In this document: positions 27,851 to 55,214 of the stretch, one piece after another
Numbering within the stretch: position 1 is the stretch's first letter
How the letters are laid out: the number at the start of each line of letters is the position of its first letter
Assembly (NCBI RefSeq): GCF_029937755.1
Contig: NZ_JAPYPG010000001.1
Span: 744,001 to 808,000 of the forward strand
Direction of reading: 5' to 3'
Length of the DNA stretch: 64,000 nucleotides
DNA from: Henriciella sp.
GTDB lineage: Bacteria > Pseudomonadota > Alphaproteobacteria > Caulobacterales > Hyphomonadaceae
Translations under genes and position numbers: made by a program
The notes under the pieces: generated by a model
Databases searched by the model: none
Seen by the model: only the letters and a program-made list of their open reading frames with translations
What the model was told of the DNA's origin: nothing

Positions 27851-28515
27851 GCTGCTTCCCGCTCACCGAAAAAGGCGCTGCCGACACGGACATGCGTGGC
27901 GCCAAACTGGGCAGCGAGCTCAAAATCGGAACTCATGCCCATGGACAAACCCTCCAGCCCGTTTTCTTTCGCGAGTTTGGCCAGAAGCGCAAAATGCGGT
28001 CCGGCCGGCTCATCGACTGGGGGGATGCACATGAGACCTTTGAGATAGCCGGGATAAGTCTCTCGGGTCTGCTTTACGAGATCTGCAAGTCCGGACGGTG
28101 CAACGCCAGCCTTTTGCGGCTCTTCGCCCGTGTTCACCTGGATGAACAGGTCAGGCGTGCGCCCGAGCTTTTCTGCAGCGTCGCTCAATGTCCGCACGAT
28201 CTTTGGCCTGTCGACCGTCTGGATCACATCGAACAGGGCCACGGCATCTTCGGATTTGTTACTCTGCAATGGCCCGATCAGATGAAGCTTGAGGCCTTCG
28301 ATATTGCGACGTTCCGACCAGTGGTCCTGTGCCTCCTGGACACGGTTCTCGCCGAACACGCGTTGACCACAATCAAGCGCGGCTTTTATGCGCTCGTCGG
28401 GCTGGCGTTTGGACACGGCGATCAGCTCGATCTCCCGCGATGATGCAGCTTCAAGCTGCTTCAGTATGGAGGCGCGATGAGCCGCTATCGTATCGGCAAG
28501 GGCGGTGCTAGTCAT
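27847..28515 (-). CDS. yggS: PLP-binding YggS/PLPBP family protein
   Basis: A 222-residue PLP homeostasis protein with an alanine-racemase-like barrel. ATG 28515 (MTSTALADT) is chosen since the upstream extension overlaps the divergent gene. Landmarks are the PLP lysine in LIAVSKRQPDE, FGENRVQEAQDHW, LHLIGPLQSNK, VNTGEEPQKAGV, GLSMGMSSDFELA and VRVGSAFFG. It influences PLP pools and amino-acid metabolism. Its start codon overlaps the divergent ThiE-like start. Confidence 0.94.
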   Translation of the reverse strand: MTSTALADTIAAHRASILKQLEAASSREIELIAVSKRQPDERIKAALDCGQRVFGENRVQEAQDHWSERRNIEGLKLHLIGPLQSNKSEDAVALFDVIQTVDRPKIVRTLSDAAEKLGRTPDLFIQVNTGEEPQKAGVAPSGLADLVKQTRETYPGYLKGLMCIPPVDEPAGPHFALLAKLAKENGLEGLSMGMSSDFELAAQFGATHVRVGSAFFGEREAA

Positions 28516-29146
28516 GGCGCCGATGAAGCATGAAGGCGCCAGTGACCGCAAGTTCCGTAATGCCGTGAGGCTAGCACACCGCCACGTTTCGAATGGCCTG
28601 CCACCCGGACTCTTCGTAACGGATCCATCGCGCACAAGCGATATACTCGAAACCGTCCACGCGCTGCCGGATGGTATAGGGGTGCTGTTTCGCCATTTCG
28701 GAAACCCGGACCAACTCACCCTGGCCCCGGATCTGGGACTACTTTGCCGGAGACAGGGAAGACCCCTGATCGTCAGTGCAGACCCGGAGCTGTGCGCGCA
28801 AATTCGCGCCTCCGGCGTTCACTGGCCGGCACGAATGACCGAAAGCAAACCCGTAAACCTCCGCACAGACCAGCTCAACACGATGAGCGTGCATGCCATT
28901 CGGGACGTCAGGAGGGCACAAACGCTTCATATGGACGCCGTTCTCATTTCCCCAGTTTTCGCTTCTGACAGCCCGAGTGCAGGCGCGCCGTTGGGGTTGC
29001 CGAGGCTCACAAGCTATGCGCGCAGGGCAGGCATGAATGTGTATGCGCTGGGAGGTGTGACAGCCAACAATGCAGAGCGCGTCGCCCGGATTGCCGGGTT
29101 TGCTTCTGTATCAGGTCTGGAAAAAGTCTACGGCCCTAGAACTTGA
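28514..29146 (+). CDS. Thiamine-phosphate-synthase-like (ThiE/TenI fold) protein
   Basis: About 210 residues; ATG 28514 or 28523 are both possible, and the ORF-track GTG at 28505 less so. The barrel motifs fit the ThiE/TenI superfamily: GLFVTDP, a SGVHWPAR counterpart of GVHLGQ, TMSVHAIRD in place of GxSxH, LISPVFAS in the pyrophosphate region, and NVYALGGVTANNAERV. Several canonical ThiE residues are altered, so it may not make thiamine phosphate. No other thiamine gene is nearby. It is divergent from yggS and ends 11 bp inside the convergent ntrZ-like gene. Confidence 0.6.
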   Translation: MAPMKHEGASDRKFRNAVRLAHRHVSNGLPPGLFVTDPSRTSDILETVHALPDGIGVLFRHFGNPDQLTLAPDLGLLCRRQGRPLIVSADPELCAQIRASGVHWPARMTESKPVNLRTDQLNTMSVHAIRDVRRAQTLHMDAVLISPVFASDSPSAGAPLGLPRLTSYARRAGMNVYALGGVTANNAERVARIAGFASVSGLEKVYGPRT

Positions 29147-30902: not shown

Positions 30903-31331
30903 ATGAAGCGCACAATTCAGATAGCCGTGGCGGTGGCCAGCGCCTTTGCCTTGTCCGGCTGCATTTTTGGCGGTGGCAAAAACCAGCCGACCAGTGTCGT
31001 CCAGGATTTCAAGGGCGGCGTGAACCCCTATCTCTGGCGCGCCAGCCTCGATACACTCGACACACTGCCTCTACAGACAGCCGATCCTGTGGGCGGCATC
31101 ATCAATTACGACTGGAAGTCCTATCAGGGCGCCGAAGGTGAGCGTATCAAGGCGACAGTCTACATTCTCGACTCCCGTCTGCGTGCCGACGGCGTGAAAG
31201 TGTCGGTGTTCCGCCAGGTTCAAGAGGATGGCGAATGGCGTGATGCCGCTATCGATCCCGCCACCGGCATCCAGCTTGAAAATGCCATCCTGACCCGCGC
31301 CAGGGTTCTGAAATCATCCGAGCTGAGCTAG
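30903..31331 (+). CDS. DUF3576-type lipoprotein
   Basis: A 142-residue lipoprotein from ATG 30903; the much longer ORF to 30534 runs antisense through the porin. The signal ends in ALSGC (Cys20). The mature part has VNPYLWRASLDTLDTLPLQTADPVGG and IINYDWKS, which fit DUF3576, an alphaproteobacterial envelope family of unknown role usually found next to leuS, as here (38-bp gap). Genes downstream include lptE, so an outer-membrane assembly connection is plausible. Confidence 0.85.
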   Translation: MKRTIQIAVAVASAFALSGCIFGGGKNQPTSVVQDFKGGVNPYLWRASLDTLDTLPLQTADPVGGIINYDWKSYQGAEGERIKATVYILDSRLRADGVKVSVFRQVQEDGEWRDAAIDPATGIQLENAILTRARVLKSSELS

Positions 31332-34410: not shown

Positions 34411-35459
34411 TCCTGAAGCCCGCAGCGGTTTCCGGTCGGGCGCGCAAGCTCGATCCCGATATTTGGTGCGTCCTGGTCTTCGGAAATGATGAAGGTGTTG
34501 TCAGCGACATTGCCGAACAGGTCGCGGCGACATGGACAAAATCTGCGGGAGGGGAGGCCAAGATGCTGACCCTGGACGATGACGAAATCCGACGTGAGCC
34601 GCATCAGCTCTTCGACCGGATAGAGACGAACTCCCTCCTCGGAGAAACCGATATCATCCGCGTGCGCACGTCGGGAGAAAAGATCTCGAAACCCGTGCTC
34701 GACCTCATTGCCCAGGCTGATCAGTCAGGATCACCCTTCAACAACAAACTGATTATCCTGAATGGCACCCTCAACAAGCGCTCGAAACTTCGCAGCACGA
34801 TGGAAGCGGCCAAGACAGCCGCGGCCATCCAGGTGTTCGCCGACAATGACCAATCCGTGCGTGACCTGGTCCAGTCCCGGCTTGAGGCAGAGAGCGTAAC
34901 AATTGACCTGGACGCCCTTGACCGATTCGCCGCTCAACTGCCCGGTCACCGCGGCCTTGCCAATCAGGAGACGGAGAAACTCGTCCTGTTCGGGCGTGAT
35001 TTAGGCCGTGCGATTTCTCTCGACGACATTCGCGCCCTTTCGCTAACGGATGCAGATTCAAGTCTCCGCGAGATGATCCAGCTGGCACTCGACGGGGAAG
35101 GGGAGGCGTGCCTCGCACAATACGAGCGTGTGGCAGAGGCCGGGACATCGGCAATCTCCATCCTCAGGCTTCTTGAACTTGAAGTGAAGCGCCTCCTGCA
35201 GGCGCGTAGCCTGATGGGCACGGGCGGCAATATCGGCATGAAGCTGAAACCCCCGGTCTTCCAGTCGGAGTGGTCAACTTTCCGCTCCCGGCTCGACCGA
35301 TGGACCTCACCAGCGCTTACCCGGCTATTGGCGGCCATCCACGACCACGAAATCCAGGCCAAACGGGCGGGCGCTGCGGCCGATCCGTCTGTCCGTATAT
35401 TGCTGCTGAATATAATCAGGTCGGCGGCCGGACGCGCTAGGAGCCCCGCTTCGCGGTAA
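34407..35459 (+). CDS. holA: DNA polymerase III delta subunit
   Basis: A 350-residue clamp-loader subunit. The N-terminal segment VLVFGNDEGVVSDIAEQV corresponds to the P-loop-like region, TNSLLGETDIIRVRT to the beta-clamp-binding area, and LPGHRGLANQETEKLVLF to the conserved middle helix. The C-terminus is the helical collar domain. It opens and loads the sliding clamp. It overlaps lptE upstream by 4 bp and the convergent parB 3' end by 23 bp, a rather long antisense overlap. Confidence 0.92.
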   Translation: MILKPAAVSGRARKLDPDIWCVLVFGNDEGVVSDIAEQVAATWTKSAGGEAKMLTLDDDEIRREPHQLFDRIETNSLLGETDIIRVRTSGEKISKPVLDLIAQADQSGSPFNNKLIILNGTLNKRSKLRSTMEAAKTAAAIQVFADNDQSVRDLVQSRLEAESVTIDLDALDRFAAQLPGHRGLANQETEKLVLFGRDLGRAISLDDIRALSLTDADSSLREMIQLALDGEGEACLAQYERVAEAGTSAISILRLLELEVKRLLQARSLMGTGGNIGMKLKPPVFQSEWSTFRSRLDRWTSPALTRLLAAIHDHEIQAKRAGAAADPSVRILLLNIIRSAAGRARSPASR

Positions 35460-36360
35460 GCTTTCGACAGAGATCGTCCAGCTGCTCCAAGTCCCTGTAT
35501 TTTATACGTAATTCTCCGCCTGAGGTCTTGTGGCGAATATCCACGGCTAGGCCGAGAGCACGTGACAGGTCAGCTTCGAGCGCCTCGGTGTCGACATCCT
35601 TTTCGTTCGCCGTCACCTTTTTGGCAATGGCATCCATGGAGCCGTCATTCTTGGTGTTCTTGACGAGTTTTTCCACGTCGCGAACATTCAGATTCTTCTG
35701 CACCGCCATAGCGACCACGGCATCAGGATCCGGTGCGCCGAGCGCGGCACGTGCATGCCCCGCCGTGATCCGCCCTTCACGAAGATGATTGCGCGCGGTC
35801 TCAGACAGGTTGAGTAGCCTAATCGTGTTCGCGATATGGGCGCGGCTCTTCCCGACACTTTCGGCAAGGCCCTCCTGGGTCCGCCCAAAGCGCTTCATTA
35901 GCGCCCCATAGGCTTCGGCCTCTTCAATCGGATTCAAATCCGTCCGCTGAACGTTTTCAATGATGCCGATTTCAAGCAGTTCGAGTTCGTCCAGCGCCCT
36001 TATCGTTGCCGGAATCTCGGCAAGGCCCGCCTGTTTGGCTGCGCGCCAGCGTCGTTCGCCCGCAATGATCTGGTACTTGGATTCGTCCTTGGGATCAGGA
36101 CGGACAAGAATCGCCTGGAGGACACCCTTGGCGCGAATGGACTCCGCGAGTTCGGCAAGCTCCGCTTCAGCAAAATGCCGTCTTGGCTGTTGCGGGTTCG
36201 GGCGAATATCCTTGATCGCGATTGTCGACGCTTCCGACACCGGGGGCGATGTCGACTCGCCTTCCTCGGAATAGGAGCTGACGCCTTCGACTTCACCGAT
36301 CAGGGCGGAAAGACCGCGGCCGAGCCGCTTCTGTTTGGACTTCGGTTCTGCCGCCATCAT
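35437..36360 (-). CDS. parB: Chromosome partitioning protein ParB
   Basis: A 307-residue CTPase that loads at parS and spreads. The N-terminus opens RLGRGLSALIGE. The CTP-binding boxes are GERRWRA and IIENVQRTDLN. A helix-turn-helix lies around GLAESVGKSRAHIANTIRLL, and the C-terminal dimerisation domain ends KLTAKRGS. Its start overlaps the parA stop by ATGA. Six parS or parS-like sites occur in the window, the closest 1.4 kb away in rsmG. Confidence 0.97.
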   Translation of the reverse strand: MMAAEPKSKQKRLGRGLSALIGEVEGVSSYSEEGESTSPPVSEASTIAIKDIRPNPQQPRRHFAEAELAELAESIRAKGVLQAILVRPDPKDESKYQIIAGERRWRAAKQAGLAEIPATIRALDELELLEIGIIENVQRTDLNPIEEAEAYGALMKRFGRTQEGLAESVGKSRAHIANTIRLLNLSETARNHLREGRITAGHARAALGAPDPDAVVAMAVQKNLNVRDVEKLVKNTKNDGSMDAIAKKVTANEKDVDTEALEADLSRALGLAVDIRHKTSGGELRIKYRDLEQLDDLCRKLTAKRGS

Positions 36361-37172
36361 GCCACCGCTCGGTTCCGTTCGCGCTGAAGCATCTCGGATG
36401 CAAGCCGGATATAGGCCTCGCTACCCGGGCAGCGATAATCATAGAGCAGGGCCGGCTTGCCGAAACTCGGCGCCTCAGATAGCCGGACATTACGCGGAAT
36501 AACCGTCTTGTAGACCTTGTTTCCGAGCACCTGACGGACCTCGTCTGCAACCTGGTCGGACAGATTGTTGCGCTTGTCATACATGGTAAGCACCACACCC
36601 TGGATATCGAGATGTGGATTCAGACCGGACCGGACGACTTCGACCGTGCGAAGCAACTGGCTCAGCCCTTCCAGTGCCAGGAACTCGCACTGCAGGGGAA
36701 CAAGCAGGGCATCAGCCGCCGTCATGGCATTGATGGTCAGCGAAGAAAGCGATGGCGGGCAGTCGATCAGGATGAAGTCATAACGTTTGTCCGGATCATG
36801 GGCGACCTTTGCCACATGATCCCGGATGGCCTCACGCAAACGGTATGACCGGCGCGGATCTTCAGCGAGTTCGGTCTCTACACCCGAAAGGTTCTCATCG
36901 CCGGGCACGATTTCCAGCCGGGGGACAAGGGTAGGGAGGATGGCTTCTTCGAGCGGCATCCGATCGACCACAACATCATAGCTCGTCAGCCGACGGTCGG
37001 CCCGCATGATCCCGAGACCCGTGGAAGCATTGCCCTGCGCATCGAAATCTACGACGAGGACCCGGCGACCGACGGCGGCCAGTGCCGTACCGAGGTTGAT
37101 CGAGGTGGTCGTCTTGCCGACGCCGCCCTTCTGATTGGCCACTGCCAGAATACGGGTGCCGGAATCAGACAC
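36357..37172 (-). CDS. parA: Chromosome partitioning ATPase ParA
   Basis: A 271-residue deviant Walker ATPase. NQKGGVGKTTTSINLG gives the deviant Walker A with signature Lys, VDFDAQGNASTGLG is the A' motif, and LIDCPPSLSSL is Walker B. The C-terminal basic part binds DNA non-specifically. With ParB it segregates the origin region. It overlaps rsmG by 8 bp and parB by 4 bp. Confidence 0.97.
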   Translation of the reverse strand: MSDSGTRILAVANQKGGVGKTTTSINLGTALAAVGRRVLVVDFDAQGNASTGLGIMRADRRLTSYDVVVDRMPLEEAILPTLVPRLEIVPGDENLSGVETELAEDPRRSYRLREAIRDHVAKVAHDPDKRYDFILIDCPPSLSSLTINAMTAADALLVPLQCEFLALEGLSQLLRTVEVVRSGLNPHLDIQGVVLTMYDKRNNLSDQVADEVRQVLGNKVYKTVIPRNVRLSEAPSFGKPALLYDYRCPGSEAYIRLASEMLQRERNRAVA

Positions 37173-37785
37173 GTTTCACCTCCATGATTTTCAGAATGAC
37201 CCCGGTCTCACTTGTCCGACTCGGAATCGCCTCATAGGCGAGAGTCCAGTATTCCTGCGCTTGCGTCAATTCTTCTCGCCAGTGTTCCCCCTTGAAAAAG
37301 AAAGCTGTTGCGCCGCGGTCAATCCAGGGCGCCGCGTAGCTGATCAACTTCGACAAGGGGGCCAGGGCGCGCGCTGTAATAAAATCAGCGCGTTCCCCGT
37401 TAACCGCCTCGATGCGCTTGTTTATTGCACGTGCCGGCAGGCCGAGCTCTGAAATAACCGCGCTGAGAAAGGCGCACTTCTTTCCGACCGATTCGACCAT
37501 ACTGACATGGCCATCACCGCCGACAGCCTCGCAAGCCAGAACAATTCCGGGAAAGCCGGCGCCGGAGCCAATATCGACAATGCGTGAGCCGTGACCCATC
37601 AGGGGCAGAAGTTGGGCACTGTCATAGACATGCCGCGCCCAGATTTGATCCATCTCCCTGGGGCCAATCAGGTTCATGCGCTGGCGCCATTCACCGAGCA
37701 TGCTGACATAGCGCTCCAGCCGGAGCTGTGTTTCACGTGAAACACCGAGCGCCGAAAGCGCGTCCTTCGCTTCGTTTTCCGTCAT
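37165..37785 (-). CDS. rsmG: 16S rRNA G527 N7-methyltransferase RsmG (GidB)
   Basis: A 206-residue SAM-dependent methyltransferase. The SAM-binding motif VDIGSGAGFPGIVLA and the preceding NLIGPREMDQIWARHVYDS block identify RsmG. FITARALAPLSKL is the catalytic-region strand. A perfect parS (37729-37744) is embedded near the 5' end and encodes GVSRET. It is followed by parA with an 8-bp overlap and is preceded by mnmG with a 2-bp gap. Confidence 0.96.
   Translation of the reverse strand: MTENEAKDALSALGVSRETQLRLERYVSMLGEWRQRMNLIGPREMDQIWARHVYDSAQLLPLMGHGSRIVDIGSGAGFPGIVLACEAVGGDGHVSMVESVGKKCAFLSAVISELGLPARAINKRIEAVNGERADFITARALAPLSKLISYAAPWIDRGATAFFFKGEHWREELTQAQEYWTLAYEAIPSRTSETGVILKIMEVKRV
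37729..37744. other. parS site 1, perfect (in rsmG)
   Basis: TGTTTCACGTGAAACA, identical to the consensus ParB-binding 16-mer, within rsmG and 557 bp upstream of the parA start. Confidence 0.97.
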
Positions 37786-37787
37786 AC

Positions 37788-39662
37788 CTATCCCGCTGCG
37801 CGCTGAGGCCGCCGCCGCTTAACATGGGCAAGCAAGGTCAATAGGGCGCCCGGCGTCACACCTTCGATGCGGGCCGCCTGGCCAAGCGTCGCCGGGCGTA
37901 CAGTCTCAAGCTTGGACCGGACTTCATTAGACAGGCCACCCACTCGGCCAAAGTCCATGTCCGCGGGGATTTCCAAATTCTCGTCACGACGCAATTGTTC
38001 CACGTCTGCTTTTTGCCGCTCGAGGTATCCCGCATAGGTCGCTTCGATTGCAAGCTGCTTGCGATGATCCCCCGAGATGTCAGCAACCTCCGGAAAAGCG
38101 CTGGCGATATCGCTGAACGAAATATCGGGGTAAGCGAGATAATCCCAGGCGCTCCGTCTCTGGCCATCCTGATTGACCTTCCAGCCCTGTTGCGCCGCCT
38201 CATTGGGCGTCATCACGAGAGACCCGAGAAGGGCCCGTCCTTTTTCCAGACCCTGGTGTTTCACGTGAAACATTTCGGCGCGTGGTGTTTTGACCAGCCC
38301 CAGCGCTACCCCCCGGCCAGTCAGTCGCTGGTCTGCATTGTCAGCGCGAAGCGCCAGACGATACTCGGCGCGTGACGTAAACATACGATACGGCTCACTC
38401 ACGCCATGGGTTACGAGATCATCGATAAGCACGCCGATATAGGCTTCTGCCCGATCAAATACCGCAGCTTTTTCGTCACGAACAGACCGTGCTGCATTCA
38501 GTCCGGCAACGAGACCCTGAGCCCCCGCCTCCTCATAGCCTGTCGTTCCGTTGATCTGCCCCGCAAGGAAAAGGCCTGGCATACGTTTGACTTCCAGGCC
38601 ATGATTCAGTGCCCGCGGATCGACATAATCATATTCGATTGCATAGCCGGGCTGAACAATCTGCACCCTTTCGAGGCCCTCGATCGTACGGATGAAGGCT
38701 TCCTGGACGTCCGTTGGAAGAGATGTCGAAATGCCATTTGGATAGACCGTGTCATCGTCCAGCCCTTCGGGCTCCAGGAAAATCTGGTGGCGTGTCTTGT
38801 CCGCAAAGCGATGAACCTTGTCCTCGATTGAGGGGCAGTAGCGCGGGCCCTTTCCGGCGATCGCCCCCGAATAAACTGCGGAGCGACCAAGATTTTCAGC
38901 AATGATGCGATGGGTCTCTTCATTCGTATACGTGATACCGCATGAAATCTGCGGAACATCGATCCGTTCGCTCAGGAAGGAGAAGGGCACAGGGCTCTCA
39001 TCGGCGGGCTGCATTTCAAGGCGGTCCCACTCGATGGTCTTACCGTCCAACCGTGCCGGCGTCCCTGTTTTCAGGCGCCCCATCGGAAGGTCCAACCGGT
39101 AGAGCCGATCGGACAGACCGATCGCCGGCTTCTCGCCGATACGGCCTGCTTCAATCCGCTCTTCCCCGCGATGGATAATGCCTTTCAGGAAGGTACCTGT
39201 TGTAATGACGACAGCAGCGGCGCGGTAGTGCTCACCCGTCTGACCGATCACACCAGCAGTGCGGCTATTCTCTACAATCAGATCTTCAACGCCGTCTTCG
39301 ATCAGCGTCAGATTTTCATAATTCGCCAGCTCCGATTGCATCGCCTGACGATAGAGCTTGCGGTCGATCTGCGCGCGCGGTCCCCAAACGGCTGGCCCTT
39401 TGGAGCGGTTGAGCAGACGGAACTGGATGCCAGCCTTGTCGGCCATTCTGGCCATAACCCCGTCAAGCGCATCAATCTCGCGAACGAGATGGCCCTTGCC
39501 GAGACCGCCAATCGCCGGGTTGCAGGACATCTCGCCGATTGTCGAAAGCTTGTGCGTGATCAGAGCGGTACGGGCGCCGGTGCGCGCAGCCGCCGTCGCG
39601 GCTTCGCAGCCAGCATGTCCGCCGCCAACAACAATTACATCAAAATCAAATGCGCCTGGCAT
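37788..39662 (-). CDS. mnmG: tRNA uridine-5-carboxymethylaminomethyl modification enzyme MnmG
   Basis: A 624-residue FAD enzyme that with MnmE makes cmnm5U34 in tRNA. The N-terminal FAD motif is [14 protein letters not shown]; further signatures are [38 protein letters not shown] and the [15 protein letters not shown] block. A perfect parS (38257-38272) forces the peptide MFHVKH. Partner mnmE is directly upstream on the same strand. Confidence 0.97.
38257..38272. other. parS site 2, perfect (in mnmG)
   Basis: TGTTTCACGTGAAACA, identical to consensus. On the coding strand it encodes MFHVKH. Confidence 0.97.
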
Positions 39663-39714
39663 TCGTCGCTCCGCTCGTCTGCATTTGAGTGCTAGGGGCG
39701 CCGCTATACATCAT

Positions 39715-39741
39715 CTCCGCCTCCAAACACAGGGGGCGGAG
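39715..39741 (-). terminator. Strong GC hairpin directly after mnmE, no U tract
   Basis: CTCCGCCTCC (39715-39724) pairs with GGGGGCGGAG (39732-39741) as a ten-base stem with one G-T wobble and a 7-nt loop. It abuts the mnmE stop and precedes mnmG by about 50 bp. Without a T run on the minus side it may be a pause site, RNA-stability element or Rho-assisted stop rather than a full terminator. Confidence 0.4.
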
Positions 39742-41064
39742 TCATTTCCCGATACAGAAGGAAGAAAAGACAGCCCCTAGAATTTCTTCGACACCGATCT
39801 CACCAATCAGTCCAGACAATTGCCGGGAGGCCAGACGGACATCTTCGGCGACCAGTTCCGCCCCGCCGCCGTGCTCAAGAAGGTTAAGAGCATGTTTCAC
39901 GTGAAACAGTGCGGATTCCAGAGCCAGCCTGTGGCGCCGCCGTGTAATCAGGGGCGCTCCAGCAGATCCGGCCCTGTTGCGGATAACCTCGGCAATGCGC
40001 GCCTCAATCTCCGAAAACCCCTCGCCCGTGAGGGCCGACATCGTCAGAACACCCTCCGGCCAGGATCCGGACTGAGCAAGATCGCGCTTGTTCACGATCA
40101 GGAGGTCATCCGCCGGACAGTCCGAAAAGTCCGGATTCTCGTCGGCTGATCGCAGCTGAATTCGCAAATCCGCCGAGGCCGCCCGTTCCTGGGCGCGGCG
40201 CACGCCTTCCGCCTCGATCTGATCGGCCGCTTCGCGCAGCCCGGCCGTATCAGCAACCCAGGCAATCTGGCCACCAATCTTCAGACGAACCTCAACCACA
40301 TCACGCGTTGTCCCCGGAATATCCGAAACGATAGCGGCTTCCCGGCGAGCCAACCGGTTAAGCAGCGAGGATTTTCCAGCATTCGGCGGCCCGACAATCG
40401 CAATGTGAAACCCCTCGCGAATCCGTTCACCGACTTCATCATCCGCGAGTGCTCTCTCGAGGCTTTCAGCGATCAGCCGCAGCGCCGCCTCGACGGGCCC
40501 ACCTGTCTCATCCGGGGCATCTTCCTCGTCCGGGAAGTCGATGCTCACTTCGAGCAAGGCCAACACATCCACCAGGCCCGCGCGCCATTCCGCATACTGA
40601 CGCGACAGCCGGCCCTCCAGCTGGTCGAGTGCCAGCGATTTCTGGGCGCGCGTTTCCGCGTCGATCAGGTCTGCAACACCTTCCGCCTCGACCAGGTCCA
40701 TTCGCCCGTTTTCAAAAGCGCGGCGTGTGAATTCACCCGGTTCGGCCAGACGTGCGCCCAGCGCGCAGATCGTATCCAGCGCATGGTCGATAACCGCCGC
40801 GCCGCCGTGGAGATAGAGCTCGGCTGTATCCTCGCCCGTATAGGAGTTGGGGCCCGGCATGAACACGGCCAGGCCCTCATCGATTGTGTCACGTGAAACG
40901 TCGAGGAATCGGCCAAACACGGCGCGGCGCGGCTTTGGCACACCCCGTTCTAGAACAGACGCGCAAATCTCACGGACTTTCGGCCCACTGATCCGGACAA
41001 TCGCAATTGCGGATGGAGGCGGCCCGGAAGCGAGCGCGCAGATCGTGTCGCGCGCATCGGTCAT
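39742..41064 (-). CDS. mnmE: tRNA modification GTPase MnmE
   Basis: A 440-residue GTPase. An N-terminal formyl-THF-binding domain (SGPKVREI, GPNSYTGEDTAELYLHGG) is followed by a helical domain split by the G domain. The P-loop is GPPNAGKSSLLN, with DIPGTTRD and DTAGLRE, and the C-terminus is the catalytic CIGK. The protein carries two parS footprints: ALFHVKHAL (perfect site) and DVSRDT (imperfect site). It forms a complex with MnmG, encoded next. Confidence 0.97.
   Translation of the reverse strand: MTDARDTICALASGPPPSAIAIVRISGPKVREICASVLERGVPKPRRAVFGRFLDVSRDTIDEGLAVFMPGPNSYTGEDTAELYLHGGAAVIDHALDTICALGARLAEPGEFTRRAFENGRMDLVEAEGVADLIDAETRAQKSLALDQLEGRLSRQYAEWRAGLVDVLALLEVSIDFPDEEDAPDETGGPVEAALRLIAESLERALADDEVGERIREGFHIAIVGPPNAGKSSLLNRLARREAAIVSDIPGTTRDVVEVRLKIGGQIAWVADTAGLREAADQIEAEGVRRAQERAASADLRIQLRSADENPDFSDCPADDLLIVNKRDLAQSGSWPEGVLTMSALTGEGFSEIEARIAEVIRNRAGSAGAPLITRRRHRLALESALFHVKHALNLLEHGGGAELVAEDVRLASRQLSGLIGEIGVEEILGAVFSSFCIGK
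39893..39908. other. parS site 3, perfect (in mnmE)
   Basis: TGTTTCACGTGAAACA, identical to consensus; encodes LFHVKH in the C-terminal part of MnmE. Confidence 0.97.
40885..40900. other. parS-like site 4 (in mnmE), two mismatches
   Basis: TGTGTCACGTGAAACG differs from consensus at positions 4 and 16. The coding strand reads as VSRDT. The TCACGTGAAAC core is intact, so ParB binding is plausible but weaker. Confidence 0.65.
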
Positions 41065-42506: not shown

Positions 42507-42932
42507 TCAGAAGGGACGGACAATCACCATGATCACAATAACGATCAGGAGGATAAACGGTACCTCGTTCATCATCTTCAGTCGCTTGGCTGAAACGGTT
42601 TCGCCCCGGTCAATTTTCTTGCCAACCGAGATGAAATACCCGTGCAGCCCCGTCAGGATCAGGACAAACAGAAGTTTCACGTGAAACCAGCCCATCTGAA
42701 GAAGCGCCGGATTCATGACCACCATCGCAATCCCCAATACCCAGACCAGGATAACCGATGGTGTCAGAATGATATGGCGAAGCTTGGTCGATGCCGACTT
42801 CATCGTCTCGAAGAGCGGTTCGCCCGGTTTCGATCCAAGCTGATGAAGCTTGTAACGCGGCTGGATCAGCATGCCGGCCATGAAGGCGACGACAAAGATA
42901 AGATGAAGAGCCTTGACCCAGAGATACGCCAT
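42507..42932 (-). CDS. hemJ: Protoporphyrinogen IX oxidase HemJ
   Basis: A 141-residue membrane protein with four hydrophobic helices. The conserved His in ALHLIFVVAFMAGM and the QPRYKLH block match HemJ, as do WVLGIAMVVM and LHGYFI. It oxidises protoporphyrinogen IX to protoporphyrin IX in the inner membrane. It follows hemE on the same strand, giving a small heme module beside the origin. A parS-like core (42673-42688) encodes WFHVKL. Confidence 0.85.
   Translation of the reverse strand: MAYLWVKALHLIFVVAFMAGMLIQPRYKLHQLGSKPGEPLFETMKSASTKLRHIILTPSVILVWVLGIAMVVMNPALLQMGWFHVKLLFVLILTGLHGYFISVGKKIDRGETVSAKRLKMMNEVPFILLIVIVIMVIVRPF
42673..42688. other. parS-like site 5 (in hemJ), core perfect
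   Basis: AGTTTCACGTGAAACC keeps the 14-bp palindromic core GTTTCACGTGAAAC; only the two outermost bases differ from consensus. It is the parS closest to the origin, about 1.3 kb from hemE's start. Confidence 0.85.
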
Positions 42933-42955: not shown

Positions 42956-44002
42956 TTATTTGGCAGCCTGCGCCCGCACGAGCTCCACAACCCGCTCGAC
43001 ATGCTTGATCGGGGTCGTCGGCAGGACGCCATGCCCAAGATTGAAAATGTGCGGGCGGTCCCGATAGGCATCGATCAGTTCGATCACCCGGCGTTCCATC
43101 TTGTCACCGCCGGCCATCAGGAGCAGGGGATCAAGATGGCCCTGGACCGGGAAATGGTCCGGCAATTCACGATTGACGAAAGCGGGCGAGACCGCCGTAT
43201 CGAGACCGACTGCGCTGACACCCGTTACATCAGTATAGGCTGGCAACATGGTTGCTGCCCCACGCGGAAACCCGATAATCGGGACGGTGACGCCGAGCTC
43301 GCGCAGACGAACAACCAGTTTCCGGTTTGGCTCGATGACGATCTGTTCGAACACATCGTCGGCGAGCCCTTCCGCCCAGGATTCGAACATCATCAGGGCA
43401 TCCGCCCCCGCTTCGACCTGTGCGGCCATATAGTGCGCGGTCACTTCGACAAGATCATCCAGTAGAAGATCCAGCCCGGCCGGATTTTCATGCGCCCACA
43501 GGCGCGCGGTATTCTTGTCGGTGCCACCACGGCCTTCGATCGCATAAAGTGCAACGGTCCAGGGCGCGCCGGCAAAGCCGATCAGCGTCTTGGAGGGATC
43601 AAGTTTCTCCTTCACGCGAGAGACTGTTTCGTAAACCGGGGAAAGCCGTTCTTTCGCAGTCTGCACAGGCACCTTGTTCAGGCGACCGCCTGGAGAGACA
43701 GGCTCAACGATTGGGCCAACGCCCTTCTCGAACCGCACACCCTGTCCAAGCGCATCAAGTACGAGAAGAATGTCCGCAAAGAGGATGGCCCCGTCCATGT
43801 CATAGCGCTGGATGGGTTGAAGCGTTGCTTCCGTGGCAAGGGACGGCGTGTAGCAAAAGTCCAGGAAGTTCTTCGCTGTGGACCTGAGCTCCATATATTC
43901 GGGCAGGTGACGTCCTGCCTGCCGCATCATCCAGATGGGAACTGGGTCCCTGCGATTGCCCAGCAGAACATCCAGAAGTGGTTTTTGCGCACTGTCAGCC
44001 AT
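42956..44002 (-). CDS. hemE: Uroporphyrinogen decarboxylase
   Basis: A 348-residue enzyme converting uroporphyrinogen III to coproporphyrinogen III. ATG 44002 (MADSAQKPLLDVL) follows a GAAGGGAG ribosome site; the ORF-track extension runs into the origin region and is not family sequence. Signatures are PIWMMRQAGRHLPEYM, the catalytic Asp region ILLVLDALGQ, FAGAPWTVALYAIEG and the FESWAEGL block. hemE flanking the origin is the Caulobacter arrangement. Confidence 0.97.
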   Translation of the reverse strand: MADSAQKPLLDVLLGNRRDPVPIWMMRQAGRHLPEYMELRSTAKNFLDFCYTPSLATEATLQPIQRYDMDGAILFADILLVLDALGQGVRFEKGVGPIVEPVSPGGRLNKVPVQTAKERLSPVYETVSRVKEKLDPSKTLIGFAGAPWTVALYAIEGRGGTDKNTARLWAHENPAGLDLLLDDLVEVTAHYMAAQVEAGADALMMFESWAEGLADDVFEQIVIEPNRKLVVRLRELGVTVPIIGFPRGAATMLPAYTDVTGVSAVGLDTAVSPAFVNRELPDHFPVQGHLDPLLLMAGGDKMERRVIELIDAYRDRPHIFNLGHGVLPTTPIKHVERVVELVRAQAAK

Positions 44003-44132
44003 CTGGCTCCCTTCAAACTCCAAACTCGAATTTCTGCTCTTATCATTCTTAAGCGCTGGAAATCGTGGACAAACCGTCTCAGGGCGGGTTGTCACCATGA
44101 ATTCCACAGCGAGTCCAATTCTGCGGTGAAAA

Positions 44133-44147
44133 TTTACCTTCTGTTAA
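44133..44147. promoter_or_regulatory. CtrA-type box in oriC, one mismatch
   Basis: TTTA-CCTTCTG-TTAA has correct N7 spacing and one mismatch to TTAA-N7-TTAA. Its centre is 31 bp, about three helical turns, from the next box. Confidence 0.6.
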
Positions 44148-44163
44148 GTCTTTGGAATCGCCG

Positions 44164-44178
44164 TTAATTCCTCGTTAA
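44164..44178. promoter_or_regulatory. CtrA-type box in oriC, perfect
   Basis: TTAA-TTCCTCG-TTAA, exact consensus, followed by CC. A GAATC methylation site (44155-44159) lies between the two boxes. In Caulobacter CtrA bound at such boxes blocks initiation. Confidence 0.75.
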
Positions 44179-44222
44179 CCATTTGAGAGACCCGGCTGAT
44201 TGGAACAAGGCAGGAATTCCGG

Positions 44223-44296
44223 CTGTGGGACTCGTCGGCATGTGGATTTCCGGTGAATGATTGTGGGGAAGATTCTCTACCCACAGCGTGTCCACA
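44223..44296. other. Cluster of DnaA-box-like sequences in oriC
   Basis: TGTGGATTT (44241), CTACCCACA (44277) and GTGTCCACA (44288) each keep the CCACA core and differ from TTATCCACA at two positions. CTGTGGGA (44223) and TTGTGGGGA (44261) resemble the weaker Caulobacter W-type boxes. None is a perfect match, as is usual in Caulobacter-type origins. Confidence 0.55.
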
Positions 44297-44357
44297 GGGG
44301 TTGTCGATTTCCTCAGGACGCTGCAGGTTCGCGCGAACCAAGAGGTCCGGAGAATCG

Positions 44358-45191
44358 ATGCGTCCGAGCATATACTTCAATGTCCATCTCGTCTCCGATT
44401 CTACAGGCGAGACGCTGAATGCTGTGATGCGTGCTGCCGCCGCGCAGTTCGAAAACGTCATCCCGCTAGAACACAATTACTATCTCGTTCGTTCCGAACG
44501 ACAGCTTGAGCGTGTGATGCGCGACATCGAAGCGGCCCCCGGCGTTGTCTGGTTCACCATTTCGGACGAGTCGCTTCGCATGAAGCTCGAGCAGTTCTGC
44601 CGGGCCAACCAGATCCCGATGCTGGCAGTGCTGGATGCGTCCATCCATCTTCTGAGCCGGCATCTTGGCGTGGCCGCGACAGACCGTGTCGCCGGCCAGC
44701 ATGCGCTGAACCAGGAATATTTCGAGCGGATCGAGGCCATCAACTTTGCGCTCGCCCATGATGACGGGCAAAATCTGCAAGGGCTGATACATGCCGATGT
44801 GATTCTTGTCGGGGTGAGCCGGACCTCGAAGACGCCAACCTGTGTCTATCTCGCCAATCGAGGCGTGAAGGCGGGGAATATCCCGCTTGTGCCAGGCGTT
44901 CCGCCGCCGCCTGTCCTGGATGAACTCGACCCGGATAAGGGCCCGCTGGTCATTGGCCTCAAGATCGGCGTGGAGCGGCTGGTCCAGATCCGCAGCCAGC
45001 GCCTGATTGCGCTGAACGAGACCTCGACCACCGACTACACCGATGAAGAAGCCGTGCGCGCCGAGGTGACGCAAGCCAGCCGGCTGTTTCAGCGCAAGAA
45101 GTGGACGATGATCGACGTCTCGCGCCGTAGTGTGGAAGAAACCGCGGCGGCCATCCTCAATAAGCTCAATGAAAAACGAGGCCAGGGATGA
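44358..45191 (+). CDS. PPDK/PEP-synthase regulatory protein (PPSR, DUF299)
   Basis: A 277-residue bifunctional kinase/pyrophosphorylase that in other bacteria controls pyruvate phosphate dikinase or PEP synthetase by Thr phosphorylation. ATG 44358 starts MRPSIYFNVHLVSDSTGETL, the standard beginning; the 35-residue ORF extension lies in the origin. The nucleotide-binding loop is VGVSRTSKTPTCVYLANRG and the SRQR-like C-terminal LVQIRSQRL block follows. It is the RP001-type gene next to the origin and leads an overlapping operon with maf, aroE, coaE and dnaQ. Confidence 0.92.
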   Translation: MRPSIYFNVHLVSDSTGETLNAVMRAAAAQFENVIPLEHNYYLVRSERQLERVMRDIEAAPGVVWFTISDESLRMKLEQFCRANQIPMLAVLDASIHLLSRHLGVAATDRVAGQHALNQEYFERIEAINFALAHDDGQNLQGLIHADVILVGVSRTSKTPTCVYLANRGVKAGNIPLVPGVPPPPVLDELDPDKGPLVIGLKIGVERLVQIRSQRLIALNETSTTDYTDEEAVRAEVTQASRLFQRKKWTMIDVSRRSVEETAAAILNKLNEKRGQG

Positions 45192-50620: not shown

Positions 50621-51160
50621 ATGTCGCGCATGGCGAAGCGGCGGCTGACAGAAGAAGAAGAGAAAGCCTGGGACCGGGTGCGCCAGACGGTGCGGCCGAT
50701 AAAATCCGGTGGCTCTCCGAAAGTGAAGCGTGATGTGAGCGAACATCCGTTGCTCAAACCGGTCAAACCCGAGCCGGATCCTGTTTCACGTGAAAAACCT
50801 GCCAAAACCGGACTGAAACCGGACTATAACCGGACTGTTTCCGGACCCCAGAATCGGGGCTCCGAAAAGAAGGTCAGGCGTGGGAAAATCGAGGTCTCTG
50901 CCAGTTTCGACCTGCATGGTCATACCCAGGATTCTGCTTGGTCTGCCCTGCCAGCATTCCTCATGCGTGAGCAGGCGCGCGGCTCGCGATGCGTAATTGT
51001 CATTACAGGAAAGGGGAAGTACGGGGAAGGCGTATTGCGACGTAACTTCCTGCGCTGGCTAGAGATGCCAAATGCCGGGGGCCTCATCTCCGGCTACGCC
51101 CAGGCCCACCCCCGACACGGTGGCGCAGGCGCCTTTTACGTGTTCCTGAGGCGCCGCTAA
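50621..51160 (+). CDS. Smr-domain endonuclease-like protein
   Basis: A 179-residue protein (ATG 50621, or Met4 at 50630) adjoining the mltA stop. A basic, low-complexity N-terminal region (1-85) leads to a C-terminal Smr domain: FDLHGHTQDSA, VIVITGKGK, LRRNFLRWL and the HPRHGGAGAFYVFL ending. Smr domains are nicking or RNA endonucleases related to MutS2. The linker carries a parS-like site encoding PVSREK, the only parS on the right of the origin in this window. Ends 4 bp inside hisE. Confidence 0.9.
   Translation: MSRMAKRRLTEEEEKAWDRVRQTVRPIKSGGSPKVKRDVSEHPLLKPVKPEPDPVSREKPAKTGLKPDYNRTVSGPQNRGSEKKVRRGKIEVSASFDLHGHTQDSAWSALPAFLMREQARGSRCVIVITGKGKYGEGVLRRNFLRWLEMPNAGGLISGYAQAHPRHGGAGAFYVFLRRR
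50782..50797. other. parS-like site 6 (in the Smr gene), one mismatch
   Basis: TGTTTCACGTGAAAAA differs from consensus only at position 15. It lies in the low-complexity linker of the Smr protein, about 6.6 kb right of the origin. Confidence 0.88.
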
Positions 51161-51513
51161 GCCTTTGTTTGTCTTGAGGCTTTTTCGGCCAGCCCTGATA
51201 CGCCGCGCCGCTCCGCTAACGCATCGGCGACCATGTCCAGCGTGACCCCTTTTGCCCTCAGTCCAACAAGTAGATGGAAGATCAGATCGGCGGCTTCAGA
51301 CGCGGTTTCCTTCCGCCCCTCAGCGGCAATGGCAAGGGCGACTTCACCGGCTTCTTCCACGATTTTCTTTCCGCAACGAAGCTCGCCGCTGTTCAGCAGT
51401 TTGGCCGTATACGATTTTTCGGGATTACCGCCCGCCCGACTATCGACGGTCTCGGCGAGCGCCGCGAGCAGGCCCGTCAGTCTATCTGCTGATCCAAGGG
51501 GTTGTTTTGCCAT
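51157..51513 (-). CDS. hisE: Phosphoribosyl-ATP pyrophosphatase
   Basis: A 118-residue MazG-like enzyme hydrolysing PR-ATP to PR-AMP, the second step of histidine synthesis. SYTAKLLNSGELRCGKKIVEEAGEVALA and SEAADLIFHLLVGL carry the metal-binding Glu/Asp helices. Last of the hisH-A-F-E run, 12 bp after hisF. hisI is not in the window. Confidence 0.95.
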   Translation of the reverse strand: MAKQPLGSADRLTGLLAALAETVDSRAGGNPEKSYTAKLLNSGELRCGKKIVEEAGEVALAIAAEGRKETASEAADLIFHLLVGLRAKGVTLDMVADALAERRGVSGLAEKASRQTKA

Positions 51514-51525
51514 GGGTTTTCTGCC

Positions 51526-52290
51526 TCACGTCTCGAAGGGTCTGACCGGCGCACCAGCGTCTGTCATAGCGGCTCGGGCTTCGGCCAGGGTGACTTCGCC
51601 GAAGTGAAAAATAGAGGCTGCCAATACAGCATTTGCTCCGCCTTCCAAAACAGCGGGCGCCAGATCGGCTGCCGAGCCTGCGCCACCAGAAGCGACCACG
51701 GGAATGGAGACCGTCTTCGTAATCGCCTTCAACAACGGGATGTCAAAGCCTGATTTTGTCCCGTCCTTATCCATCGAGGTCAGCAGAATCTCGCCAGCAC
51801 CCCGCTGCTCGGCTTCCATAGCAAATTCAACAGCATCAATACCCGTGGGCTTGCGACCTCCATGGGTGAAGATCTCCCAGTGATCCCCTGTCTTGCGGGC
51901 ATCGATCGCGACAACGACGGCCTGACTGCCACCTTTCGCGGCACATTCGGAGATAACCGCAGGATTGGCGACGGCCGCCGAGTTGATCGCCACCTTGTCT
52001 GCCCCGGAGCGCAACAGTTGGACCAGGTCTGACGCCGATCTCACCCCACCGCCAACTGTCAGCGGCATGAAGCATTGTTCGGCGGTTCGTCTGACGATAT
52101 CCAGCATTGTCCCGCGCCCTTCATGGCTCGCCGTGATGTCCAGAAAGCAAAGTTCGTCAGCACCTTGTGAATCATAGGCTTTTGCAAGAGCCACAGGGTC
52201 TCCGGCATCGCGCAGGTCGACGAAATTAACACCTTTGACCGTGCGTCCATCTTTCACATCCAGGCAGGGAATGATGCGCGTTTTAAGCAT
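51526..52290 (-). CDS. hisF: Imidazole glycerol phosphate synthase cyclase subunit HisF
   Basis: A 254-residue TIM barrel. Catalytic Asp residues are in [15 protein letters not shown] and [24 protein letters not shown] and VVASGGAGS form phosphate sites. It uses ammonia delivered by HisH to make IGP and AICAR. 6 bp after hisA. Confidence 0.97.
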
Positions 52291-52296
52291 GGCAGA

Positions 52297-53031
52297 TCAA
52301 GCCCTCGCAGCCTCAATGGCTTCAGCCGGGTCGATATCGCCATCATAAAGCGCGCGGCCGAGAATCGTGCCGGAGATGGGGCGCTTTCCACCCGATTTCC
52401 TGAGGTTTTTGATGTCTTCCACGCTTGCTACACCGCCAGACGCAATGACCGGAATCGAAACAGCGTCGGCCATCTCACTGGTAAACGCGACATTCACACC
52501 CGTTTTCATGCCATCGCGGGAAATATCGGTCACGACAAGACCTGCAACGCCGCATCCCTCGAAGATTTTTGCAAGCTCAATAGCTTTTATGTCGGAGGTC
52601 TCGGCCCAGCCCTCCACGGCGACATAGCCATCCTTTGCGTCTACCCCAACGACAATCTTTTCCGGCAGATCGCGGGCTGCGGACTTGACCAGGTCTGGGT
52701 CCCGAAGGGCAGCGGTGCCAAGAATTACGCGGGAGATGCCGGCTTCGAGCCAGGCATCGATCTGGGCACGGGTGCGGATGCCGCCGCCAAGCTGCACAGG
52801 CACATCGGTTGCCTTGAGGATGCCACGCACCGCTTCACCATTAGCGCTGTCGCCTGCAAAGGCGCCATTCAGGTCGACTACGTGTAACCGGTCAAACCCC
52901 ATGGTCTTGAACTGGTATGCCTGGTCTGACGGGTCCGGATTGAACGCGGTCGCCTTGTCCATTTCGCCCCGCAGCAGACGAACGCACTGTCCGTCCTTGA
53001 GGTCGATAGCCGGGTACAGGTTAAAACTCAT
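52297..53031 (-). CDS. hisA: ProFAR isomerase
   Basis: A 244-residue TIM barrel homologous to His[16 protein letters not shown] carries the catalytic Asp, VQLGGGIRT and VIASGGVAS are phosphate-binding loops, and [15 protein letters not shown] has the second Asp. It isomerises ProFAR to PRFAR. Overlaps hisH by ATGA. Confidence 0.97.
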
Positions 53032-53672
53032 GCCGGCTCCCAGGTCAGGAAATTGGCGAGCAGGCGCAAGCCTACACGCTGGCTCTTCTCCGGATGAAAC
53101 TGCGTTCCGAAGAGATTGTCGCGGGCGACCGCTGCCGTGATTTCTCCGCCGTATTCGGTCGTCGCTGCAATATCTGCGGGATTGGTCGGTACCATAGCGT
53201 AGGAATGTGTGAAATAGACGTGTGGGTCATCGCCAAGCCCCGCCAGAACGGGGTGGTCCTGTTTCAATGACAATCCGTTCCACCCCATGTGGGGCACCGC
53301 CAGCCCACCGCCGGGCTTGATGCGGTCGACATCCCCGGCAATCCAGCCAAGGCCAGGCGTCTTTCCATCCTCAAGGCCCCACTCGGCGATGAGTTGCATG
53401 CCGACACAGATGCCGAGAAAGGGTTTGCGGCTGTGTATGACGGCCTCCTGCAACGCACTCTCCATGCCTTCAACGGCACGAAGACCGGCGGCGCAATCTG
53501 CGAAATGGCCGACGCCTGGCAGTACGATTCGGTCAGCCTTCTGCACGCGATCAGCGTCACCCGTGACCTCGATATCGACGGCAGCGGCGCACATTTCTGC
53601 CGCCGCCCGCAAGGCGCGCTCGGCGGAGTGCAGGTTGCCCGATCCGTAATCTATCAACACAAGTGAGGTCAT
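53028..53672 (-). CDS. hisH: Imidazole glycerol phosphate synthase glutaminase subunit HisH
   Basis: A 214-residue class I glutamine amidotransferase. The oxyanion strand is IVLPGVGHF, the nucleophile elbow is [11 protein letters not shown], and the His-Glu pair is in [11 protein letters not shown]. It hands ammonia to HisF. First gene of hisHAFE; separated from hisB by an oppositely oriented M20 gene, so it needs its own promoter in the 114-bp gap upstream. Confidence 0.97.
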
Positions 53673-53786
53673 CAGGCGCGCTCATAACGGGGGCTGCGCC
53701 TGGAGGAAAGAGGCGTCAGCGCCTTGATCCGCCGAATTTGCTGCAGCAAGCTGACACATATCAGTTTCTGAATGGAGTTTTCCCTC

Positions 53787-55214
53787 ATGCGCATCCTGCC
53801 TTCCCTCTGTCTTGCGGCCAGCCTTGCCTTGGCGCCAGCGTATGCCGACACCTCTACTGAGAAAGCAATGAGCCTTGTCGAGCAGCAGGAGGCTCTGACC
53901 GGGAGTCTCGCAAGCCAGCTCTGGGAGTGGGCTGAGGTTGGCTATCAGGAGACAAAGTCGTCCGGCCTGCTGCAGGACACGCTGTCGAATGAAGGCTTTG
54001 AGGTCGAGGCCGGTGTGGCTGGAATTCCGACTGCCTTCGTTGCCGAATATGGGTCCGGGGAGCCGGTGATTGCTGTGCTGGCGGAGTTCGACGCCCTGCC
54101 GGGGATCAATCAGTCCAGCGAGCCAACGAGACAACAGATAGATGGCAAGCATGCCGGGCAGGCCTGCGGACATAATCTCTTTGGCGCGGGTTCCGTGTCC
54201 GCAGCGATCGCCATTCGCCATTGGCTTGAAGATACCGGAACCACGGGCACGATCCGTGTTTACGGCACACCAGCGGAAGAGGGGGGTAGCGGCAAGGTCT
54301 ATATGACGCGTGCCGGCCTGTTCGATGATGTCGACATCGCGATGCACTGGCACCCGGACGACCAGAATTCGGCGGCGGCCAACACCTCGCTGGCCAATCG
54401 CTCGGCCAAGTTCCGGTTTCATGGCAAGTCAGCTCATGCCGCCGGCGCACCCGAACGCGGTCGCTCGGCCCTCGATGGGGTCGAGGCTTTCAATATGATG
54501 GCCAATATGCTCCACGAACACATTCCGCAGGATGCACGCATTCACTACGTGATCACGCAAGGCGGTAATGCGCCCAACGTGGTGCCGGACTTCGCCGAAG
54601 TCTTCTACTATGTCCGCCATCCGGAAGCCGACGGCGTCGACAAGATCTGGGCGCGGCTGGAAAATGCGGCTCGTGGCGCCGCCATGGGCACAGGCACGGA
54701 AGTCGATTGGGAAGTCATTCATGGCAATAACCCGCTGCTGGTCAATGAGACGCTGGCGCGGATGATGGACAGTAAGCTGCGAGAAGCCGGCGGGATTACC
54801 TATACGGCCGAAGAAAAAGCTTATGCGGAAAAACTGGCTGCGAGCTTCGACAATCCGGAGCTCAAGATTGGCTCACAGGAAGAGATTCAGCCCTTCGAGA
54901 TTTCGCTTGGCTACGGCTCAACCGATGTGGGCGATGTCTCTTGGGCGGTTCCGACCGTTGGCCTGCGCACAGCAACCTGGGTTCCGGGTACTTCTGCGCA
55001 TAGCTGGCAAGCGGTCGCTGCAAGCGGCATGTCGATCGGCCAAAAAGGCGCGCAACTGGCTGCGGAGGCACTGACGCTTGCTGCCGTTGAACTTTACCAG
55101 AACGACAACCTCATCGACGAAGCTTGGGAAGAGTTCGAGGACAAGCGCGGCCCGGACTATGAATACAAGTCGCTGCTCGGCGACCGTGATCCACCGCTGG
55201 ATTATCGGAAGTAG
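53787..55214 (+). CDS. Secreted M20-family amidohydrolase (AbgB-like)
   Basis: A 475-residue metallopeptidase-like hydrolase with a signal peptide (MRILPSLCLA..., cleavage near AYA-D). ATG 53787 is chosen since GGAG lies 9 bases upstream. Metal-site features are CGHNLFGAGSVSAA, GTPAEEGGSGKVYM and a HWHPDD segment, with STDVGDVSWAVPT near the end. It resembles aminobenzoyl-glutamate hydrolase subunit B and related N-acyl amino-acid hydrolases. The substrate is unknown. It sits antisense inside the his cluster between hisB and hisH, and converges on hisB (3-bp gap). Confidence 0.85.
   Translation: MRILPSLCLAASLALAPAYADTSTEKAMSLVEQQEALTGSLASQLWEWAEVGYQETKSSGLLQDTLSNEGFEVEAGVAGIPTAFVAEYGSGEPVIAVLAEFDALPGINQSSEPTRQQIDGKHAGQACGHNLFGAGSVSAAIAIRHWLEDTGTTGTIRVYGTPAEEGGSGKVYMTRAGLFDDVDIAMHWHPDDQNSAAANTSLANRSAKFRFHGKSAHAAGAPERGRSALDGVEAFNMMANMLHEHIPQDARIHYVITQGGNAPNVVPDFAEVFYYVRHPEADGVDKIWARLENAARGAAMGTGTEVDWEVIHGNNPLLVNETLARMMDSKLREAGGITYTAEEKAYAEKLAASFDNPELKIGSQEEIQPFEISLGYGSTDVGDVSWAVPTVGLRTATWVPGTSAHSWQAVAASGMSIGQKGAQLAAEALTLAAVELYQNDNLIDEAWEEFEDKRGPDYEYKSLLGDRDPPLDYRK

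Follow-up and report, generated by a model that had tools for sequence, protein, structure and literature searches.

A predicted Caulobacter-type chromosomal replication origin in the hemE-PPSR gap of Henriciella

Where does chromosome replication start in Henriciella? The question is raised by a 355-bp non-coding gap between the divergent genes hemE and PPSR, which a first-pass annotation had proposed as the chromosomal oriC. The DNA stretch analyzed here, referred to as the window, comprises 64,000 nucleotides and corresponds to positions 744001-808000 of contig C18 of a 3.78-Mb draft genome consisting of 36 contigs. It is concluded that this gap is very probably the chromosomal oriC, situated at the hemE/PPSR location of the Caulobacter type and predicted to operate by a mechanism of the same type. 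The proposed origin is supported by GC skew, synteny, motif conservation, the clustering of parS sites, and marker-frequency data from Hyphomonas neptunium.

The gap, its flanking genes and the nearby segregation locus

The gap is bordered by two genes that point away from it on both sides, as annotated initially, and both of them were confirmed by Pfam:

44003..44357, no strand assigned: predicted oriC, the 355-bp gap between the divergent hemE and PPSR genes, 51% GC
42956..44002, minus strand: hemE, uroporphyrinogen decarboxylase, left flank (Pfam URO-D, E=8e-100)
44358..45191, plus strand: PPSR gene (Kinase-PPPase/COG1806, "RP001-type"), right flank (Pfam PF03618, E=1.2e-88)

By the PPSR protein, the closest named relatives are Henriciella mobilis (96%) and H. 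aquimarina (95%), which assigns the genome to Henriciella or its immediate vicinity within the Hyphomonadaceae. The GC content of the gap compares with approximately 60% for the window. The gap had also been described as the longest non-coding one in the window, which held once three false gaps were discounted. A codon-usage gene finder left three nominally longer gaps at 28.5, 30.8, and 49.2 kb, of which the first two contain overlooked ORFs (one at 28505-29146 and one that ends at 31331, respectively), whereas the third resulted from an MltA gene start that was set too short. Because the longer gaps are due to missed ORFs or a mis-set gene start, 44003-44357 is the longest true gap. The overlooked ORF at 28505-29146 encodes 213 amino acids and was judged by eye to be thiamine phosphate synthase-like. 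No Rfam family match was obtained within the window.

The proximity of parAB and parS was borne out as well, since parA and parB were confirmed by Pfam at 35.4-37.2 kb and parS sites were detected in the vicinity of the gap:

35437..37172, minus strand: parB-parA operon (Pfam; parB 35437-36360, parA 36357-37172)
37729..39908, no strand assigned: three perfect parS sites TGTTTCACGTGAAACA, at 37729, 38257, and 39893 (sequence scan)
50782..50797, plus strand: single-mismatch parS site, on the PPSR side (sequence scan)

Throughout the genome, no other parS site has one mismatch or fewer; all four are within 6.5 kb of the gap and they bracket it. Between the perfect sites and the gap are two more parS-like sites, each with two mismatches, at 40885-40900 inside mnmE and at 42673-42688 inside a UPF0093 (hemJ-like) gene. 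A similar arrangement is known from the origin of H. neptunium, a member of the same family, in which parAB is located about 7 kb from hemE and accompanied by parS (PMC6650430, PMC7200025).

Motif content and conservation of the gap

CtrA-type, DnaA-like, and GANTC sites had all been reported for this gap, and all three were recovered, with 2, 7, and 5 sites, respectively. DnaA-like sites were defined as TNTCCACA with at most one mismatch, of which the gap contains seven, and CtrA sites as TTAA-N7-TTAA. The GANTC sites are at 44111, 44155, 44229, 44271, and 44352. The remaining elements, including a conserved GGAACA, are as follows:

44055..44063, minus strand: second DnaA-like box ATTTCCAGC, weak and contiguous with the box at 44064 (sequence, genus comparison)
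44064..44072, minus strand: DnaA box TTGTCCACG, with a GTGGA core invariant in 28 same-genus genomes (motif scan, conservation)
44101..44109, plus strand: DnaA-like box ATTCCACAG, with a CACAG block conserved to at least 96% (motif scan, conservation)
44133..44147, no strand assigned: CtrA site 1 TTTACCTTCTGTTAA, one mismatch, perfect in several relatives (motif scan, conservation)
44164..44178, no strand assigned: CtrA site 2 TTAATTCCTCGTTAA, perfect, followed by CC (motif scan, conservation)
44202..44207, no strand assigned: conserved GGAACA, near-invariant in the genus
44241..44249, minus strand: DnaA box AAATCCACA (motif scan, conservation)
44262..44270, minus strand: weak DnaA/W-box-like site TTCCCCACA (motif scan)
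44277..44285, plus strand: DnaA box CTACCCACA, which reads TTATCCACA in some sister species (motif scan, conservation)
44288..44296, plus strand: DnaA box GTGTCCACA, 11 bp downstream of the 44277 box, with a TCCACAGGG block conserved to at least 93% (motif scan, conservation)

The background was established from 355-bp windows across 646 kb of the same genome. The observed number of DnaA-like sites was reached by none of these windows, those of CtrA and GANTC sites by a fraction of 1.5e-3 each, and the joint DnaA and CtrA count was equalled nowhere. The gap is the densest DnaA-like cluster found, the next-densest clusters having at most 6 sites. It is also AT-rich, with 174 of its 355 positions being A or T as compared to a background mean of 137, which places it in the top 1.1% of windows. 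Each of its DnaA-like boxes has at least two mismatches to TTATCCACA, and the boxes are therefore individually weak. Weak DnaA boxes, TTAA-N7-TTAA CtrA sites, and a location between hemE and CC0001 (COG1806) are likewise features of the Caulobacter crescentus origin Cori (PMC1914354, PMC4468827, PMC8959179). In a comparison of location and motifs, two CtrA sites are recognizable in the Henriciella gap, whereas Cori has five.

A divergent hemE-PPSR gap of 338-565 bp was present in all 49 genomes measured, which include the source genome, extend beyond the genus to further families of the order, and are those in which both genes could be placed; one further locus had no hemE match and is not part of this set. 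Among 28 same-genus genomes, mean conservation was 0.87 for the DnaA and CtrA cores as compared to 0.61 for positions outside the motifs; when the motif mask was shifted circularly, none of the 354 shifts did as well. The conserved part of the gap within the genus consists of the DnaA and CtrA sites. In addition, two conserved blocks in these 28 genomes were not accounted for by known sites, namely, CTTATCATT at 44039 and GAACA at 44203. Inspection by eye also revealed GGAACA in several further genera of this order, in the stretch separating the CtrA sites from the PPSR-end DnaA boxes.

GC skew and alternative start sites

Cumulative GC skew had been suggested as a check of the proposed origin. 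On contig C18, the 740 kb to the left of the window were sampled by 13 stretches, every one of which had negative skew, and each of the 5 stretches taken on the right had positive skew, so that the change of sign falls inside the window. For a complete chromosome, stretches of a closed genome of the same genus (G028) were sampled, and the sign was found to change at hemE/PPSR: this locus is at 2913.5 kb, with the last negative stretch ending at 2913 kb and the first positive one beginning at 2915 kb. In this chromosome, negative skew extends between about 1.3 Mb and 2.91 Mb, and positive skew from 2.915 Mb past position 1 to 1.1 Mb, the latter except for one slightly negative stretch at 3.45 Mb, and the opposite switch is located at about 1.2 Mb, roughly across the chromosome from hemE/PPSR. 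In H. neptunium, GC skew gave no clear result, whereas the large-scale skew shows the origin here. For that species, a marker-frequency peak close to hemE was reported, dnaA being shown as a locus of its own (PMC6650430), and CtrA ChIP-seq showed binding next to ori (PMC7200025).

These data bear on the possibility that the gap is solely the divergent promoter region of hemE and PPSR, at which DnaA and CtrA act as transcription factors, and that the origin is elsewhere. Since the two genes are divergent, their promoters must be in the gap, and a promoter-like match is indeed present at 44147-44118 on the minus strand; furthermore, Caulobacter DnaA and CtrA also regulate transcription (PMC4468827). 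However, promoter function leaves unexplained the skew switch, the clustering of parS, the densest DnaA-like cluster, and the Hyphomonas marker-frequency peak near hemE (PMC6650430). Promoter and origin roles can also coexist, as in Caulobacter, and a role restricted to transcription is considered very unlikely.

Skew alone cannot single out the 355-bp gap because the fine minimum is broad (41-54 kb). Within the window, cumulative skew is lowest at 53.9 kb and has a second, shallower low at 41-44 kb; third-position skew is weak near the gap. In a second closed genome (G018), of which 960-1360 kb were sampled, cumulative skew reaches its local minimum 10 kb away from hemE/PPSR on the PPSR side, and distant stretches have mixed skew. 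Both minima would fit a true start some kilobases toward the PPSR side, near 53.9 kb. However, the dip in the window falls where four minus-strand genes (51157-53672) end. Of these genes, all four have negative plus-strand skew at codon position 1 and three have positive skew at codon position 3, so that the 53.9-kb minimum is due, at least in part, to the skew of these genes. Moreover, no dense DnaA/CtrA cluster and no long non-coding gap were found near 53.9 kb, which makes a start at this position highly improbable. An ORF at 53682-54422 was discarded from the codon-position analysis as spurious, since it overlaps a Pfam-supported plus-strand gene. The four genes stand out on an otherwise plus-strand PPSR side and shift the local minimum by about 10 kb; a similar 10-kb shift is seen in G018.

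An origin adjoining dnaA, as in many bacteria, is a common arrangement outside the alphaproteobacteria, and a skew minimum there had been named as the observation that would speak against the hemE/PPSR gap. Such a minimum is absent: skew at dnaA is uniformly negative and without a sign change, so that this objection fails, and the switch in G028 is at hemE instead. The gene sits together with dnaN on another contig (C1, 286696), and its distance from hemE is 397 kb and about 547 kb in G018 and G028, respectively. With DnaA-like boxes only scattered at this locus and no parS site of at most one mismatch found there in the genome-wide scan, a dnaA-side origin can be dismissed almost entirely.

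A candidate unwinding module and the proposed mechanism

Of the conserved blocks in the predicted origin, the one at its hemE end deserves separate consideration:

44039..44053, minus strand: CTTATCATTCTTAAG block, candidate DnaA-trio/unwinding element, near-invariant in the genus

On the minus strand this block reads GC, followed by TTA AGA ATG ATA. Most sampled members of the genus possess, on the minus strand toward hemE, a TTKTCCAC box, an 11-nt spacer, and TTA RTA ATG ATA, so that the second trio is intact in most of the genus and interrupted (AGA) in the source genome. Trios were placed on the strand opposite that reading TTATCCACA, which is the orientation in B. subtilis. A BUS was defined by three or more trios (3'-NAN-5') following one another no farther than 16 bp from a DnaA box. 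Such runs were detected in most sampled genus members, whereas in the source genome, with its second trio reading AGA, the scan found no run reaching the score threshold. The box, spacer, and trios of most sampled Henriciella resemble the BUS of Bacillus subtilis and others, for which a layout with a spacer peak of 10-13 bp was published (PMC8287927); given the opposite-strand orientation of the trios, the 11-nt spacer falls in this range. The source genome differs from this layout by having fewer consecutive trios than the published minimum of three, and outside the genus the element is patchy. Shuffling gave p values of 0.004-0.034 per single genome, for genomes that are related to each other. 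That the module is common to the whole order is unproven, as most other genera had no match or p values of about 0.04-0.13, with one exception at p 0.01.

The combination of box and trio-like element in the genus is suggestive of an unwinding module, with an element of the hemE promoter being a rival role for the block at 44039. This conserved hemE-side DnaA box with its DnaA-trio-like element is possibly a new detail. A more far-reaching proposal is that the hemE-end box and CTTATCATTNTTAAG form a Hyphomonadaceae unwinding module that is drifting from the DnaA-trio rule in this lineage, and that GGAACA is the site of an undescribed origin-binding factor; this is regarded as speculative and rather unlikely.

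The location and the motif content of the origin were observed here, and from Caulobacter and Hyphomonas we infer the steps of binding and firing. DnaA would load cooperatively on the array of weak boxes, formed by the tandem cluster at the PPSR end (44277-44296, plus 44241 and 44262) and the hemE-end box at 44064-44072, and would then melt an AT-richer part of the gap, with the hemE-end box and the adjacent CTTATCATTNTTAAG element as a candidate starting point. Exclusion of DnaA from weak DnaA boxes by CtrA~P has been proposed for Caulobacter (PMC4468827). Likewise, CtrA~P bound to the two central sites (44133-44178) may exclude DnaA and block replication in swarmer-type cells. CcrM methylation at GANTC would mark the replication state, and ParB bound to the nearby parS sites would segregate the new origins. 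According to profile matches, the genome encodes proteins of the CtrA and GcrA types and with a RAMA domain (CcrM-type); the RAMA match concerns the domain only, and the CtrA model, although one of Rhodobacterales, scored over its cut-off.

That this is a chromosomal origin of the Caulobacter/Hyphomonas type, ordinary in kind, is well supported, and as far as the searched literature shows, an origin of this type is new for Henriciella. The hemE-side origin, known experimentally in Caulobacter and Hyphomonas, is hereby extended to this genus, in a group in which dnaA is unusable as an origin marker. The footprint of 28 genomes sets the constrained sites apart from the rest of the gap, and the hemE-end box with its trio-like element as well as GGAACA are targets for understanding how an origin made of weak boxes may open.
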